Assembly (NCBI GenBank): GCA_024653345.1
Contig: JANLFV010000006.1
Location: 1-64,000, forward strand
Source of the DNA: Candidatus Acetothermia bacterium
GTDB taxonomy: Bacteria; Bipolaricaulota; Bipolaricaulia; RBG-16-55-9; JANLFV01
DNA length: 64,000 nucleotides
Direction of reading: 5' to 3'
The position numbers and the translations under genes are program-made. Shown here piece after piece: positions 4,839-57,801 of the stretch; positions within the stretch are counted from its first letter, which is position 1; the number at the start of each line of letters is the position of its first letter. The notes under the pieces are model-generated. The model did not search any database. It was not told where the DNA came from and was given only the letters and a program-made list of their open reading frames with translations.

Positions 4839-4850
4839 GGTGAAGAAGGA

Positions 4851-4874
4851 GAGGGCCCCCGAAGCAGGGCCCTC
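4851..4874 (-). terminator. Hairpin downstream of the PKD-protein operon
   Basis: GAGGGCCC and GGGCCCTC form an 8-bp stem with an 8-nt loop, about 30 nt past the stop of the last PKD gene. On the minus strand it is followed by pyrimidine-rich TCCTTCTTC, not a clean T-run, so it is a weak intrinsic terminator. Confidence 0.45.
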
Positions 4875-4902: not shown

Positions 4903-5649
4903 CTAGAGGACCTGCACCTCTACATCTTTGGGGATCGGGAGCCTGAAGCGCGGGGAGAAGCTGCTCACGAAGCCCTCGATCTTGTATAGGCCCCGCGGCG
5001 CGCTCCCCGGGACTTCCACTTCATAGACGATCCTCAACCGATCCCCGAAGGAGGCCTCGTTAGCCCAAAGCCATTGATACTCACCCTTCTCGGCGTCGAA
5101 GTGCGGCTCGCTGTTCGTCGCCCCCCCGTTCTCCACGGCCCGCAGCCGCCAGCCGGTCGGGGGCTTGATCGCCAGCCCCGGTCCGCGGACGGTCTCGCGG
5201 AAGACGAGCTCGACCACGACCTTGAGCTGCTGGCCCGGAAGGACGCGGTTGGGGGCGAGCGGCGCGAAAATGGTCTGGCAGACACCAGCCGGAGCCGCGG
5301 GCGAAGCCGCGCTCACCGTGATCTCTCTCGTCCCGACGGCTGTCGCGCCACCGTCGTCCGTTACGCGGAGCGAGACCCTGTAGCTCCCGCCAGCATCGTA
5401 GACCCAGTTGTATCGCGGGAACTCAGAGGCCCGCTCGAAGGCCCCGTCGCCGTTAAAGTCCCACTCATACCGGACGATCCGGCCGTCCGGGTCGCTCGAG
5501 CTCGAGCCGTCGAAGGTCACGATGTCGTTGGCCGTCGGGCTGCCGGGAGCGTAGCTGAAGTCGGCCTGTGGCGAGCTGTTCGAGCCGGCGTAGAGGCTCA
5601 CGGCCCCTAGGGCGCAGACGACCACTGCTAGGCAGAGCCTAAGCTTCAT
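4903..5649 (-). CDS. Secreted PKD-domain protein, 248 aa
   Basis: The N-terminal hydrophobic segment (residues 1-21) is a likely signal peptide. Residues about 27-114 form a PKD domain with the FDGSSSSDPDG...YEWDFNGDG pattern and a VTDDGG strand. Residues about 120-248 form an Ig-like domain (LPGQ, PTGWRL, QWLWAN, YEVEVPG) that matches the first half of a module repeated in the two upstream proteins. It lacks the helical, cysteine-paired second half. It is the last gene of a three-gene run; the previous stop TGA is embedded in the Shine-Dalgarno of this gene (13-nt gap). Function is unknown; a surface or matrix role is inferred. Confidence 0.8.
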   Translation of the reverse strand: MKLRLCLAVVVCALGAVSLYAGSNSSPQADFSYAPGSPTANDIVTFDGSSSSDPDGRIVRYEWDFNGDGAFERASEFPRYNWVYDAGGSYRVSLRVTDDGGATAVGTREITVSAASPAAPAGVCQTIFAPLAPNRVLPGQQLKVVVELVFRETVRGPGLAIKPPTGWRLRAVENGGATNSEPHFDAEKGEYQWLWANEASFGDRLRIVYEVEVPGSAPRGLYKIEGFVSSFSPRFRLPIPKDVEVQVL

Positions 5650-5662
5650 CGGACTCTCCTCA

Positions 5663-7567
5663 TCAGGGCAGCGACTCGTAGACCGGCGTCTCGGTCAGCC
5701 AGTAGGCGATCAACTCCTCCATCGTCTGGAGGTCGATCTTCTTCTCACAGCTGTGAGGGACCTCTTCCCCAGCCAGCCACCAGGCGACGGCCTGCTGGAT
5801 CTGGGGGAAGGTGATCTTGTCCCCGAGCTGGATGTTGAACTCGTCCTTCTCCGTATCCCAGCGGGAGATGACCCAGCTGATGGGGAGGCACTCGCTCACT
5901 TTCACCTGGCTCTCGCCCAGCACCGCCGCCTCGAAACCCGGGGAGGCGCTGCTGATGTTGCCGCTGAGGCTGTAGATGTCGATCGCAGCATCGGCAGGGA
6001 CGGCCACATCGTAGACGATCTTCTTCACCGTCCCGGCAGGGATCTTCCCCACGAGCAGCCACTGCACGGCGCTGGCGTGATAGGTGAACCCGTCGTTCTC
6101 CCGCGGGGTGACCTTCCACCCCTCGGGCAGGTTCTCGTCGAGCCCGAGACCGTTGAGGTCGATGTTGATCGCGATGGTCACCGTGACCTGGAAGGTCTGG
6201 CCGGGGAGTGTCCGGTCGACATGCAGATAGGTATTGATCTCGCGGGTCACGCTCGCCTTGACGGTGAAGACCGTAAGCCGGGCGCAGTAAGGCGCAGAGG
6301 AGGCGCCGTCGTCGTCGGTGACGGTCAGGCAGACTTCATACTCTCCGTCCCGGCCGTAGCGATGGCGCGGATGCTGCTCGTTCGAGCGAGTCCCGTCGCC
6401 GAAGTCCCACCGCCAGGCCACGATCGTCCCATCCGGATCAGATGAGAGGTCCGTGAAGGCCACATCGTCCGCGGCGCTCGGCTCACGGGGCGAGAACTGG
6501 AAGTTCGCCTCTGGCGCGGCGTTCGGTCCGCGGACGGTAATCGTGAGCGGAGGAAGCTCCAGCCGCTGCTGCCGGTGGCGGAAGTCGTTGAACGTCACCT
6601 GCGGAGGCTCAGCGTCGATCTGCATCGCGACCCTCCGCCCGGAGATAGGCCGGGCGTAGGCCACCTCGAAGGAGGCGCACCAGCTCTCCCCGACGGGCAG
6701 CTCCGCCAGGCTCCACTCCAGGACGGTCGTCTCCCCGCGGCGCACCTCGCGGCTCGGCGGATTGGCCAGGGCCCGATAGGTGAACCCCGCGGCCAGCGTC
6801 CGGGTGACGGTGATCTCCGTCCCGACGAGGTCCCGATAGAGGGCCTCGAAGATCTGGTCCAGCGCTTCCTCATCGGGCTTGGCGAAGAAGAGCCCGCCGG
6901 TCAGGCCGACGATCTCGGGGAGGCTCGGCTCGAGGTAGCTCCCGATTCCCAGGGCGTAGATGATGATCCCGTTCCGCGCGGCGATCTCCGCCTGGGGGAG
7001 CGGCTCCCGGCCGGTGTTGCTCCGCCCGTTGATGAGCAGGATCTCGACCAGGACCGCATCGTCGCGGCCGTGCTGGATCAGCTCGAGATTCGCGGCTGCC
7101 AGCCCCTCACCGAGGCCGGTCTTGCCCGCATTCTGCAGCCGGCGCAGTTGGGCCGCGACCGCGCTCTTGTCCGAGGTGAGGGGAACATCGAGGCTGGCCG
7201 TGTCTGCGAACGAGACGAGCGCCACGCGGTCCTCCGGTCCCAGCCGGGCCAGGATCTGGTCCCCCAGCCTCCGGACCGCGGTGATGTCCGAGCTGGCCGA
7301 GCGGTCGGCTACCAGGACCAGATCCAGGGCGAAGAGCTGATCCCGCAAGGCGCGCAGCGTCAGGGTGACGATCGCGCGGTCCGGCTGGCCCGCGCCCTGG
7401 GAGTAGATCGCCTCGGGGCTGATCGCTTGCTCGAACCCGATGAGGGGGGCCGGCCCTTGGGCGTTGAGGCCGAGGCTCAAGCTGAGCAGGACGATGAGCG
7501 CGCCCGCGACCGCAACTCTCCTCAGAACTGCCATCCTCCTTATCTCCATTTTCGCTCTCCCTTCCAT
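5663..7567 (-). CDS. Secreted von Willebrand A + PKD protein with C-terminal repeat module
   Basis: A signal peptide (hydrophobic VAVAGALIVLLSLSL) is followed by a VWA domain at about residues 90-260 of the longest frame. The MIDAS DxSxS reads DRSAS; the usual TDG/SDG segment reads INGRS, so the metal site may be altered. A PKD domain lies at about 358-441 (DFGDGT, VTDDDG). Residues about 446-639 carry the module shared with the 719-aa neighbour: an Ig-like half (GLGLDENLPEGW) and a helical half (CLPI...EVPHSC...MEELIAYWL). I prefer the ATG at 7567, preceded by AAGGAGA; a TTG at 7591 would overlap the upstream stop. Role unknown, possibly adhesion or assembly at the cell surface. Confidence 0.8.
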   Translation of the reverse strand: MEGRAKMEIRRMAVLRRVAVAGALIVLLSLSLGLNAQGPAPLIGFEQAISPEAIYSQGAGQPDRAIVTLTLRALRDQLFALDLVLVADRSASSDITAVRRLGDQILARLGPEDRVALVSFADTASLDVPLTSDKSAVAAQLRRLQNAGKTGLGEGLAAANLELIQHGRDDAVLVEILLINGRSNTGREPLPQAEIAARNGIIIYALGIGSYLEPSLPEIVGLTGGLFFAKPDEEALDQIFEALYRDLVGTEITVTRTLAAGFTYRALANPPSREVRRGETTVLEWSLAELPVGESWCASFEVAYARPISGRRVAMQIDAEPPQVTFNDFRHRQQRLELPPLTITVRGPNAAPEANFQFSPREPSAADDVAFTDLSSDPDGTIVAWRWDFGDGTRSNEQHPRHRYGRDGEYEVCLTVTDDDGASSAPYCARLTVFTVKASVTREINTYLHVDRTLPGQTFQVTVTIAINIDLNGLGLDENLPEGWKVTPRENDGFTYHASAVQWLLVGKIPAGTVKKIVYDVAVPADAAIDIYSLSGNISSASPGFEAAVLGESQVKVSECLPISWVISRWDTEKDEFNIQLGDKITFPQIQQAVAWWLAGEEVPHSCEKKIDLQTMEELIAYWLTETPVYESLP

Positions 7568-7587
7568 CGCTCTCTCCTTATCCCTCA

Positions 7588-9747
7588 TCAAGGATCATCG
7601 GTCACGGTCCCGAGCGGCAGGTCCACGGGGGTCCCGGTGAGCCAGTAGGCCACCAGCAGCTTCATGGTCTCCATGTCGATGGTCTTGCCGCAGGTTCCGG
7701 GGACCGGCTCCTCCTCGAGCCAGAAGGCGATCGCGGCCTGGATCTGGTCGAAGGTGATCCGGCTCGAGAGCGTGGCGTCGATCGTGTTGCTCTCCACATC
7801 GAGATAGGCGATGGCCACGGGGATCGAGAGACACTGGGCGATCACGACTTCCGTGTCGCCGGTCACGCCGAGGTCAAACTGCGGGTTCATGCTGTCCACG
7901 ACGCCGCTCAGAGTGATCACATCGAGCTTGCACTCGCACCCGACGCAGTAGAGGTCAATGGGCACGGTCACCTCATAGCTGATCGTCTTCACCGTCCCGG
8001 CGAGGATCTTCTCGGGGAAGACCCACTGGACCTCCGACTCCTTGAAGACTCCGCCGGCGTTGCCCAGGGCCCTAACCTCCCAGTCGCGGGGGATGTTCTC
8101 GTCCACGCCCAGGCCGTGGAGGTCCTCGTTCGCCGTGATGGTCAGCACCACGCGGAAGATGTTCCCCCGATACCCCTGGAGATAGAGCTGGTGGAAGGGG
8201 AAGGGGGTGATGATCCGGCGCGTGGCGGTGACCGCCCGATTCGAGGGCTCGTCGGGGAGCGGCTCATCGATCTGGATGCACTTGAGGTGGTAGGCGATGA
8301 TCGTCTTGAGCGTCTCGAGGTCGATGAGTGAGCCGCAGGCTGCCGGGACCGGCTCGTCCTCGACCCAGTAGTAGATCGCCTTCTGGAGCTGCGCGGCCGT
8401 GACATCGTTCGCCAGGGTCAGATCGACCTCTTCCGTCTGAGTGTTGAGGTGGGCGATGGCCACGATCACCGGCAGGCAGCGGTCGACCTTGAGGCAGGAG
8501 TCGCCCTGCACATCCTTGTGGAACGCCGGTGAGGCGCTGTCCAGCACCCCGGTGATGCACTCCTTGACCGGGAGGGACCCGAGGACCTGCTCCTCCGGGA
8601 CGGTCACATCGTAGATGACGCGGAGGGTCTCGCCGGCACGGATCGTCCGGGCCCAGATCCACTGGGTCTCCACGCGCTTGAACGCCGCCCCAGCGTTGTC
8701 CAGGGGGTTGACCTCCCAGCCGCCGGGGATGTCCTCATCGAGCCCGAGCCCCTCGATCGCTGTGGAAGTGGAGATCTCGACGATCACGCGGAAGGTCGAG
8801 CCGGGGAGGACCGCGGGGGTGGAGATGATCCGGGTCGCGGTGATCACGGCCTCGGAGACGGTGACCGTCCGCGTGGCCGAATTAGAAGCGCCCTGGTTGT
8901 CGGTGACCGTGAGGGTGACGGTGTAGCTCCCGGCCCTCGTGTAAGTATGGGTCACGGTGATCCCGCTGGCGGTCGTCCCGTCACCAAAGTTCCAGTCGTA
9001 GCGGGCGATCGAGCCGTCCTGATCGCTCGAGCCGGAGGCATCGAAGGTCACCGCCTGGCCGATGCTGATCGCGGTCGCCGGGGAGAAGGTGAAGCTGGCG
9101 ACCGGCGGGATGTTCGTGGTGACGCTGACCGTGATCGGCTGGGTCAGGCTGGCAAGCCTGGTGTAGACGGGGTTGGCGATCGTGCCCGTGACGAGGTCCC
9201 ACTGCGTGATGTTGCTGATGAAGCTGGGGGTGATCGTGATCGAGAACTCCCTTCCCAGCCCGCCGATCACCACGCCGTCGTTGTGGATCGGCTCCCAGCG
9301 CCAGTGGACCCGTGCCGTGGGAGGAGTCCACTCCCAGGTGTCCGGCGAGGGATCATCCCGGACCACGGTCGTCGCGCCCGCGGGGAGCCCGCTGAAGGCG
9401 AACTCCACCTCGCCCCCCACGGTGTTTCCGGGCTTGTCGTGGATGATCACGAGATAGACCTCATTGGTTGTGGTGTCCTTATAGAGGAAGAGGATGCTGT
9501 GCTGCTCCACCTCCAGGCCCGTGTGAGACTCATCGTTCCGGTAGTCATAGAACTGCTGGACCGGAGCGGCCCGCTCCAGTGGGGTGAGAGGATAGACTTC
9601 CGTGCCCTGCTTCACCGAGTAGTAGAGGTTCTGCTGGGCAAGAGCCGGCAGGGTGAAGAGGGCGACAGCCAAGAGAATGAGTAACGGATAGAGGATGAGC
9701 GTCTGCGGCCCACCCTCTAGCTTCGGAACCCGACTAGCAATCTTCAT
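7588..9747 (-). CDS. Secreted PKD-domain protein with two copies of a ~195-residue module
   Basis: Signal peptide at residues 1-38 (cleavage probably after LPALA). An unrecognised N-terminal domain spans about 39-205. A PKD domain follows at about 212-298 (DWNFGDG, VTDNQG). Two related modules lie at about 303-498 and 507-712. Each has an Ig-like half ([14 protein letters not shown] / [14 protein letters not shown]) and a helical half starting CLPV/CLSI with two W/Y-containing helices separated by EPVPxxCG. The Cys pair is conserved in each copy, suggesting a disulfide. The start ATG 9747 has AAAGGAGG upstream. It is the first gene of the three-gene run; function unknown. Confidence 0.8.
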
Positions 9748-9767
9748 CTTTGGCCTCCTTTAGCGCC

Positions 9768-9773
9768 AGTATA
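9768..9773 (-). promoter_or_regulatory. Extended -10 box close to the 719-aa PKD gene
   Basis: TGC-TATACT on the minus strand with predicted start near 9761, 14 nt before the ATG. No good -35 at the right distance, but an extended -10 can function without one. Confidence 0.35.
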
Positions 9774-9830
9774 GCACCGGTGGCCGCAAAAGACCGTAAT
9801 CTAGATAACACTACCCCTTCTGTTGGTCTG

Positions 9831-9860
9831 AATATAGCACACCTTAGCGGCAGGAGTCAA
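9831..9860 (-). promoter_or_regulatory. Candidate promoter for the PKD operon
   Basis: TTGACT (9860-9855), an 18-nt spacer ending in TGC (extended -10), then TATATT (9836-9831). The predicted start near 9824 gives a leader of about 77 nt. Confidence 0.45.
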
Positions 9861-9898
9861 TCCCCTCTCCTGTCGCCAGTGCCAAACGAGGCCAAGAT

Positions 9899-9946
9899 GA
9901 CGGCTTGAGCATAACTCCGCCCGGCGGAGGGGCGAGGACAGCCGTC
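9899..9946 (-). terminator. Nested hairpin downstream of rplM
   Basis: GACGGCT pairs with AGCCGTC as an outer 7-bp stem enclosing CTCCG/CGGAG. It sits 11 nt past the rplM stop. There is no T-run after it on the minus strand, so termination (possibly Rho-assisted) is only suggested by position. Confidence 0.35.
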
Positions 9947-9957
9947 AGGAGCCGCGG

Positions 9958-55946: not shown

Positions 55947-56305
55947 TGGTGGAGGTGCGGGGAATCGAACCCCGGTCCGAAAATGCTTCCACCCGACTTC
56001 TACAAGCTTAGTCCCATGCTCTATTCTGAGGCCGAAAGCTCCCATGGGACAGGATCTTCCGGCCCGAGCCCTTCAGTTTCGTCCCCCATCCCTTCCGGGC
56101 TGAAGGGAAGAGGCCAGCCCGTTTCAGTCGACGCCCCTAAGGCCCCACGGGCGAGGGCCTCAGGGACGGCCCCTCAGTTAGTTATAAGAGGGGACAGCGA
56201 ATGCCAGATTGTCGGCATTTATTGGTAGATCTGCCATTTGCAGGAGATGGCAGAAACTCCGCTTGCCGCCGGACTTCCGCATTCCCGTCGAGACCGTTCA
56301 CCCCC
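55947..56305 (-). ncRNA. ssrA: tmRNA (transfer-messenger RNA)
   Basis: Rescues stalled ribosomes. The tRNA-like ends pair: 5' GGGGGTG with 3' CACCTCC, followed by encoded A-CCA; the T-arm reads GACCGGGGTTCGATTCCCC. A TCTGCCAT/ATGGCAGA hairpin fits PK1. The tag frame starting GCC at 56216 reads ADNLAFAVPSYN then TAA, with the stop codons in the loop of a CCCCTC/GAGGGG hairpin (H5), as expected. The tag does not end in the usual Ala-Ala type tail. Length 359 nt. Confidence 0.92.
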
Positions 56306-56325
56306 ATCTCAAAGATCGCAGTGTT

Positions 56326-56353
56326 ATTATACAACAGAGAGCCCGAAATGCAA
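56326..56353 (-). promoter_or_regulatory. ssrA promoter
   Basis: TTGCAT (56353-56348), 16-nt spacer, TATAAT (56331-56326). Predicted start about 56319, giving a 14-nt 5' extension that RNase P would remove. Confidence 0.55.
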
Positions 56354-56354
56354 G

Positions 56355-56717
56355 CTACAACCTCCGGCCGAGGAGCAGCCCGCCGAGCGCTCCGAGCGAG
56401 TCGGCGCCCCAGTCGAGGATCGAGGCCGAGCGCGTGGGGACGAAGAGCTGGTGGAGCTCATCGGAGCCGGCGTAGGCCAAAGCGATGATCAGGGCCAGGC
56501 CGAGCCCGCGGGCGTCCCGCGGATTGAAGGCCTTCCAGGCCAGGAGGCCGAAGAGGAGATACTCGAGGAAGTGCCAGAGCTTATCCCCGTGGGCGAAGGG
56601 GAAGACGGGCGAACCCTCGGGGAGTGGGAGGCTCGAGAGCCAGAAGATCAGGCCGGAATAGAGGAGCAGCGTCAAGCCCCACAGCAGGCGTTTGTTCAAT
56701 TCAGAGACATCTCCCAT
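56355..56717 (-). CDS. VanZ-like membrane protein
   Basis: Four hydrophobic helices with the VanZ-family landmarks HGDKLWHFLEYLLFGLLAW and GSDELHQLFVPTRSASILDWGADSLGALGG. Despite the name, most members have no link to glycopeptide resistance. Length 120 aa. It starts 6 nt past the RNase P RNA end and ends just at the ssrA promoter. Confidence 0.85.
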   Translation of the reverse strand: MGDVSELNKRLLWGLTLLLYSGLIFWLSSLPLPEGSPVFPFAHGDKLWHFLEYLLFGLLAWKAFNPRDARGLGLALIIALAYAGSDELHQLFVPTRSASILDWGADSLGALGGLLLGRRL

Positions 56718-56723
56718 CAGAGC

Positions 56724-57073
56724 GCAGAGAGGGCCGTAAGCCGGATTCTGTGTTTAAGAGGGCCATCCATCTTGGCGGTCCACCCGGAGGCGAGAGGGCG
56801 GGCCGCCCTCGTCTTCCTCCCTACTCGACCTTGCTCCGGCCGGGGGGCTGCCAGCCCGGCCCGGTCGCCCGGGCCGGCGGTGGGCTCTTACCCCTTGAAG
56901 CCGCCTCTAGCGGCACCCTTTCACCCTTGCCCCAAGCGAGGCGGTCTGGTCTCTGTGGCCTTACCCGAGGGTCGCCCCTCCTGGGCTTGCGCCCAGCGGC
57001 CTGCCCTGTGGAGTCCGGACTTTCCTCGACCGAGCGGCAAGGCGCTCGGCCGCGGCCCTCCGGCCCTCTCTGC
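56724..57073 (-). ncRNA. rnpB: RNase P RNA, bacterial type A
   Basis: Catalytic RNA for tRNA 5' maturation. The conserved GAGGAAAGTCCGGACTCC lies near the 5' end and ACAGAATCCGGCTTA near the 3' end; the terminal GCAGAGAGGGCCG and CGGCCCTCTCTGC pair as P1. Length about 350 nt; ends are set from P1 and are accurate to a few nt. The type-A assignment is from size and general layout. Confidence 0.93.
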
Positions 57074-57078
57074 TCACC

Positions 57079-57084
57079 ATTATA
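57079..57084 (-). promoter_or_regulatory. -10 box of rnpB
   Basis: TATAAT 6 nt upstream of the P1-defined 5' end, so transcription starts right at the mature end. The -35 (TACTCT) is poor and lies inside the upstream gene's 3' end. Confidence 0.55.
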
Positions 57085-57090
57085 CCGGAT

Positions 57091-57801
57091 TCATTCCCAG
57101 TAGAGTATCCGGTGGCAGTTCTCGCAGACCACCAGCTCCCGCCCCTCGCGCACTCGGTCGCGCGTGTTCTCCGAGAGCCACATCTTGCAGCCGGAGCAGG
57201 AATCGCCCTCGACTCTCGCGATCGGCTCGTCGTAGCGGTAGTCGCGCATCAGCCGCTCATACTGCTCGAGGAGGTGGCGTTCGACCTGCGCGGCCAGCTC
57301 GGCGCGGCGCTCGCGAGCTCGCTCCAGCTCGGCCTGGCGGGCGGCGGTCTCCTGAGCCACCCGGTCGATCTCCTCGCGCATCCCGCGCTCCCATGCGCTG
57401 AGCGCCTCGGCCTCCCCGGCCAGTTGCTTCTCTTTGGCCTCGATCTCGTTCATCAGCCCGATCGCCCCGTCCGCCAGCTCTTCCATCCGCCGCCTGGTCC
57501 AGTCGAGCTTCTCCTTGAGCGCCTCCATCTCCCGGTAGCTCATGATGCTCTCGCGCAGCTGCTTTTCGTAGTTCCGCATCTGGTAGTCGAGGGAGTCGAC
57601 CTCGTCGTTCCGGCGGTGGCTCTCGCGGCGGAGATCGTCCAGCGCCCTCCGCTTCTCCGCCAGCTCCGCACGCCTCTGGTCGATTCTCTCCTCCAGCTCC
57701 CTCCGCCGCGCCGCGAGCCGCTCGAGGCGGGCGGAGAGCTCGCTGATAGCCCGGTCCTGCCGCTGCACTTGGAATAGGAGTGCCAGCCTCTCGCGCATCA
57801 T
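57091..57801 (-). CDS. Coiled-coil protein with C-terminal C4 zinc ribbon (CT398/zf-RING_7 type)
   Basis: Residues about 10-185 are a long charged coiled coil (E/R/L heptads). The C-terminus has CSGCKMWL and CENCHRILYW, the four-Cys ribbon of the CT398-like family. Length 236 aa. Location immediately before rnpB is common for this family in other bacteria. A nucleic-acid or secretion-related role has been proposed; function is not established. Confidence 0.85.
   Translation of the reverse strand: MMRERLALLFQVQRQDRAISELSARLERLAARRRELEERIDQRRAELAEKRRALDDLRRESHRRNDEVDSLDYQMRNYEKQLRESIMSYREMEALKEKLDWTRRRMEELADGAIGLMNEIEAKEKQLAGEAEALSAWERGMREEIDRVAQETAARQAELERARERRAELAAQVERHLLEQYERLMRDYRYDEPIARVEGDSCSGCKMWLSENTRDRVREGRELVVCENCHRILYWE

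Follow-up and report, generated by a model that had tools for sequence, protein, structure and literature searches.

Three adjoining genes on the minus strand of the window (the whole 64,000-nucleotide stretch analysed here, from a Candidatus Acetothermia bacterium) encode putatively secreted proteins built on a shared module of ~200 residues, in which an Ig-like half is followed by a helical half. Judged from sequence, the helical half belongs with EF-hand/dockerin-like domains but is calcium-dead and in many copies Cys-paired; joined to the Ig-like domain, it is fixed in an operon core to the phylum Candidatus Bipolaricaulota (Acetothermia). The reading that we prefer, at a probability of about 0.4, is that this phylum-core operon encodes a secreted envelope or surface assembly whose scaffold would be made of Ig-helix dyads.

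Gene organization and domain content

The genes for the 719-aa protein (BIG), the VWA protein and the 248-aa protein lie where the earlier note had placed its secreted protein cluster (Table 1). By ORF coordinates, BIG shares 4 nt with the VWA-protein gene, which is in turn separated from the 248-aa gene by 13 nt, and we read the three as a single operon. The signal peptides were read by eye, and all three products are predicted to be exported.

Table 1. Features of the BIG operon and its flanks in the window (coordinates are window positions).
Feature	Position	Strand	Description or basis
BIG, 719-aa ORF	7588..9747	-	Signal peptide, N-terminal beta domain, PKD, (Ig+helix) x2
BIG N-terminal beta domain, residues 42-212	9112..9624	-	BIG-specific; no Pfam match
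BIG PKD domain, residues 214-297	8857..9108	-	Pfam, E 2e-27
BIG module 1 Ig-like half, residues 303-421	8485..8841	-	Profile search, AlphaFold model
BIG module 1 calcium-dead paired-helix half, residues 424-498	8254..8478	-	Profile, model, loop ligands
BIG module 2 Ig-like half, residues 510-636	7840..8220	-	Profile search, AlphaFold model
BIG module 2 calcium-dead paired-helix half, residues 639-713	7609..7833	-	Profile, model, loop ligands
VWA protein, 642-aa ORF	5663..7591	-	Signal peptide, VWA, Ig-like linker (by eye), PKD, Ig+helix
VWA domain, VWA-protein residues 90-249	6845..7324	-	Pfam PF00092, E 6e-17
VWA-protein PKD domain, residues 357-433	6293..6523	-	Pfam
VWA-protein module Ig-like half, residues 450-565	5897..6244	-	Profile search
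VWA-protein calcium-dead paired-helix half, residues 568-642	5666..5890	-	Loop NIQLGDKITFPQ; profile, loop ligands
248-aa protein ORF	4903..5649	-	Signal peptide, PKD (24-112), Ig-like half only (125-247)
Promoter-like site, sigma-70 type, TTGACT-18-TATATT, TG before -10	9831..9860	-	Upstream of BIG; consensus match only
Possible terminator hairpin, GAGGGCCC-loop-GGGCCCTC + T-rich tail	4842..4874	-	3' of third gene, by eye

Conservation of the promoter-like site 5' of BIG orthologues was unconvincing, the site being weaker or absent in most, and the possible terminator, a GC hairpin, was not among the sites reported by the scanner used. Codon usage was also tried as a proxy for expression; BIG ranked high but the spread was small, which leaves a weak hint of high expression. 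The gene directly preceding BIG is rplM, and rpsI, the usual partner of rplM, would be too large for the 210-base gap at window 9748-9957. Elsewhere in the window, an ORF beside the tmRNA gene (56238-57401, plus strand) has outlying codon usage, with a GC3 of 0.60 compared with 0.78-0.92; it overlaps the tmRNA call (55947-56305) and may be a foreign gene or not a real gene.

A PKD domain, absent from the earlier note, was found by Pfam in all three proteins, and the closest genome-contig matches mostly concerned this domain only. The VWA domain belongs to PF00092 by its domain match and by its MIDAS motif (DxSxS...T...D), of which the window copy has DRSAS and T; its last Asp is replaced by Asn, a position at which 17 of the 18 VWA-protein relatives keep the Asp. 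The Ig half was matched by DUF11 in 16 of 26 BIG orthologues (best 7e-8), with weak NEW3 (NPCBM_assoc) matches across it, whereas the matches of the window proteins fell below the curated cut-offs and the Ig domain here is coupled to a helical domain. The Pfam scan of the three proteins recognised no domain in the helical half and gave no SLH or other anchor, and no cohesin match (PF00963) was obtained in any of them, Ig half included, at E<=1. The BIG N-terminal domain had no significant match outside the phylum in named loci. With PKD-rich and VWA surface proteins (PF18911 and PF00092, respectively) the operon proteins have PKD in common, and one of them VWA with a MIDAS motif; neither the Ig-helix module nor the N-terminal domain of BIG belongs to those families.

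This domain content raises the alternative that the operon encodes a secreted adhesin or substrate-binding set, in which the helical half would only stabilise the Ig domain as a cap, with no role in assembly. PKD, DUF11-type Ig domains and VWA domains are frequent components of adhesins, the MIDAS is conserved, and the 248-aa protein carries an Ig half without a helical half. On the other hand, a near-universal, single conserved locus is unusual for adhesins, which vary fast, and the helical domain exists on its own as well, in proteins of ~90 aa that have a signal peptide, which indicates that it is not just a cap for Ig. We regard the adhesin set as somewhat unlikely, though a serious rival of the preferred reading.

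A shared Ig-helix module with a duplicated helical half

Profiles built from the window copies and then iterated on fetched loci recovered the module twice in BIG and once in the VWA protein, and found its Ig half without a helical half in the 248-aa protein (E 1e-29 to 1e-42), in agreement with the copies described from the sequence before. Protein search matched module 1 to module 2 at E 4e-43, to the VWA-protein module at E 3e-38 and to the Ig-only copy at E 2e-11. The AlphaFold2 model of BIG had a pLDDT of mostly 90-97 over both modules, remained high across the Ig-helix linker, and showed the same order of secondary-structure elements in both modules rather than unrelated folds. The linker is ~3 residues long in most copies. 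In a tree of the modules, modules 1, modules 2 and the VWA modules grouped by position and not by genome, which points to old duplications, although the deep branches were poorly resolved.

The helical half contains a true internal duplication, as had been proposed. Its two halves aligned to each other with an hhalign probability of 97%, and their mean BLOSUM score was 22.4 compared with -16.2 +/- 5.5 for column shuffles, none of 5000 of which scored as high. Modelled alone, the helical domain had a pLDDT of 96 and comprised a short helix followed by two 13-residue helices with a loop before each; by the alignment of its halves and the shuffles, it has the tandem duplicated loop-helix (F-hand) unit that is a feature of dockerins. 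No one well-described domain accounted for this half. Foldseek of the helical-domain model against the PDB gave no match, in a search that is weak for 78-residue domains and had no dockerin control. The whole 719-aa chain returned generic Ig-string matches only, which were uninformative, and a PDB sequence search with the helical profile returned chance matches only.

The conserved Cys pair was also borne out: among 79 scorable copies, 40 had both cysteines, 39 had neither and none had a single one. This perfect co-occurrence points to a disulfide, which the pair probably forms in the many copies that carry it; as the copies are related by descent, the Fisher p-value overstates the case, and the pattern is strong but not independent evidence.

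Beyond the operon, the genome of the window carries further helical-domain copies unmentioned in the earlier note (11 in all). In this genome, a CAP/SCP-like domain protein (by eye; L167 on contig C22) opens with a calcium-loop helical domain. Separately, four loci (L141:8366-11134(-), L165, L168 and L142) encode secreted proteins that carry a helical or an Ig domain and whose terminal segment, ANGVYLYxVxVRG, is reminiscent of sorting tails of the FlgD-Ig/type IX-like kind; a subtilase-like domain was seen by eye in L141 as well.

Loss of the calcium loop in the operon copies

Repeat 1 of helical-domain homologues elsewhere in the phylum carries a calcium loop of the EF-hand/dockerin kind (for instance DTNGNGRIDDDE; canonical form D-x-N-x-N-G-x-I-x-D-x-E). 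The genome of the window itself encodes further secreted proteins whose helical domain opens with such EF-hand-like loops (DTNGNGTLEDSE, DADGDGRISDGE and DRNGSCVIDDAE). The calcium-loop and window forms aligned to each other with an hhalign probability of 99.4%. The four loop ligands (positions 1, 3, 5 and 12) were kept in 0 of 70 Ig-fused copies, compared with 13 of 15 loop-bearing others, a contrast that describes two forms and not a random sample, the 15 having been chosen as that type. These 13 homologues also have the hydrophobic residue at position 8 of an EF-hand loop, and their EF-hand matches are below cut-off (E down to 1.6e-4). Among the 70 Ig-fused copies, position 8, which is buried, is hydrophobic in 100% and position 1 is Asp in 80%, while position 3 is Asp or Asn in 4% and position 12 is Glu in 3%; in 39 of the first 40 Ig-fused copies listed, position 12 is Gln.

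One relative (G005, 4.1 Mb) has undergone a large expansion, with 58 helical domains compared with 11 or fewer in relatives. Most of the twelve of its 58 copies that were read, from about 0.8 Mb, carry the calcium loop, always in repeat 1, and the loop of repeat 2 is of the VPGTG type. We infer that the helical domain derives from a one-calcium EF-hand/dockerin-like ancestor, a direction suggested by the two forms and not rooted by a tree.

Comparison with dockerins

The description of the helices as a calcium-less dockerin-like duplication held at the level of motif and failed at the level of formal dockerin membership. As in type I dockerins (PF00404), an F-hand is duplicated, each consisting of a loop and then a helix ending in W/Y, and the D-x-N-x-N-G-x-I-x-x-x-E loop, lost from the window copies, persists in repeat 1 of their homologues. 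Unlike in dockerins, the repeat 2 loop is VPGTGG-like and without ligands, so that the two D-x-[DN]-x-[DN]-G calcium loops of a dockerin do not occur together even in the homologues, which keep loop 1 only. Neither the window copies nor the calcium-loop copies matched Dockerin_1 at E<=10, and hhalign probabilities against dockerins were 9-26% over the whole domain and 81% for F-hand 1 alone. Since both the Pfam match and the two calcium loops are missing, we do not file the helical domain as a dockerin.

The arrangement of the module resembles the X-module-dockerin (XDoc) dyads of Clostridium thermocellum / Acetivibrio scaffoldins, in which an Ig-like fold packs on the dockerin through a hydrophobic interface (PMC5141474). 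In both, an Ig-like domain is directly followed by a duplicated loop-helix unit, and a secreted protein of several domains ends with this dyad. XDoc dockerins, however, bind two calcium ions and a cohesin, whereas the loops in the window are calcium-dead, many copies carry a Cys pair, and co-occurrence requires no cohesin here; the likeness is one of architecture, without established sequence homology.

Distribution and gene neighbourhood in the phylum

Of 100 phylum genomes, 96 were positive with the module profile, including all 38 of good quality, and protein search found the module in 37 of 40 relatives. Outside the phylum it was found in 1 of 50 genomes, a Methanococcoides with the Ig half only, these 50 having been picked by PKD similarity as a control and not as a census. 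Full-length BIG (~694 residues at 42-44% identity) was present in five genomes named Candidatus Bipolaricaulota/Acetothermia, and on these matches we provisionally assign the window to the phylum. The presence of BIG in nearly all members of the phylum and hardly elsewhere suggests that it is probably a core part of the cell surface.

In relatives, BIG is flanked, in whole or part, by rplM, purA and ileS upstream and lon downstream. Five families other than f1 show, completely or partially, the order ileS-purA-rplM-BIG-(VWA)-(PKD-Ig)-lon. It reads ileS-purA-rplM-BIG-small Ig protein-lon in f7, ileS-purA-rplM-BIG-VWA-Ig in f6 and BIG-VWA-PKD-Ig-lon in f4. These recurring neighbours support vertical inheritance of an old locus, and we take the BIG operon to be, as far as gene content and order indicate, a core and vertically inherited trait of the phylum. 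In f7, a count at the chosen threshold gave exactly two helical domains in 35 of 40 genomes, the number that the two copies in BIG would account for, and no VWA-protein neighbour stood in those f7 loci that were read; the three-gene set is therefore not required everywhere. Just past lon, beside the operon, family f4 also encodes ~90-aa proteins consisting of a signal peptide and a helical domain (L123:4715-4987(-), L124, L126, L127 and L132).

The housekeeping neighbourhood by rplM and lon, which is conserved, and the count of about one BIG locus per f7 genome would also fit a periplasmic or envelope maintenance factor, such as a chaperone or an outer-membrane tether, in place of a surface polymer. 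PKD and tandem Ig chains are, however, typical of extracellular proteins, and the paralogues present in families f3 and f5 suggest adaptive surface variation, so we consider a maintenance factor unlikely, though it too is a serious rival.

Cohesins and the possible partner of the module

Clustering with cohesin-like partners had been put forward as a check on the module. The genome of the window has Pfam cohesins above cut-off, three on contig C9 together with one Pfam dockerin (C9:4680-9047) and a further one on contig C30 (C30:55317-55694). Among 40 relatives, 18 have cohesins above cut-off, confined to the window's order except for one weak match in f8. All 14 f6 and f7 genomes searched for both carry BIG and lack a Pfam cohesin, which weakens the idea of a cohesin-like partner; a cohesin is not required, and co-occurrence rejects a Pfam cohesin as an obligate partner. 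As the f6 and f7 genomes searched lack Pfam cohesins and most f7 genomes have two helical domains only, any essential contact would be homotypic or with a non-helical partner.

A non-cellulosomal cohesin-dockerin system, in which the operon proteins would dock by their dockerin-like halves on cohesin-like scaffoldins, would draw on these same cohesins and the one dockerin. It is quite improbable, given that cohesins are nearly confined to one order while the 14 f6 and f7 genomes carry BIG without any Pfam cohesin, that the loops have lost the calcium ligands needed by dockerins for folding and support, and that the sequence match to dockerins is not significant.

Proposed role of the operon

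Under the preferred reading of a secreted envelope or surface assembly, the loss of the calcium-loop ligands (the Glu at position 12 being mostly Gln) and the Cys pair in many copies would have produced a permanently folded, calcium-independent interaction dyad, a binding role proposed by analogy with X-module-dockerin pairs. BIG would be the main, chain-like structural subunit, with its two Ig-helix dyads making the contacts to BIG itself or to a partner, and the VWA protein, with its MIDAS in relatives, and the short PKD-Ig protein may be accessory binding and capping subunits. A bolder version, which we consider very doubtful, is a phylum-defining extracellular lattice or sheath polymerised homotypically by the converted dockerin-like dyad, with a disulfide in place of calcium. 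Such a lattice might perhaps be tied to the unusual flexible envelope and polar prosthecae of Bipolaricaulota (PMC6092417); the prosthecae of Candidatus Bipolaricaulis anaerobius lend interest to an envelope role, but nothing links BIG to them.

Our literature searches on Acetothermia S-layers, Bipolaricaulota PKD proteins and calcium-free dockerin-like domains found nothing relevant and no description of BIG. As a putatively secreted protein retained across almost the whole of a deep, uncultured phylum and scarcely outside it, BIG is a prime suspect for whatever sets the envelope of the phylum apart. The series from a calcium loop through a calcium-dead form with Gln at position 12 to a Cys-paired form would exemplify the replacement of a metal by a disulfide in an interaction module, and BIG may serve as a marker gene and as a target for antibodies against, or imaging of, Bipolaricaulota cells.
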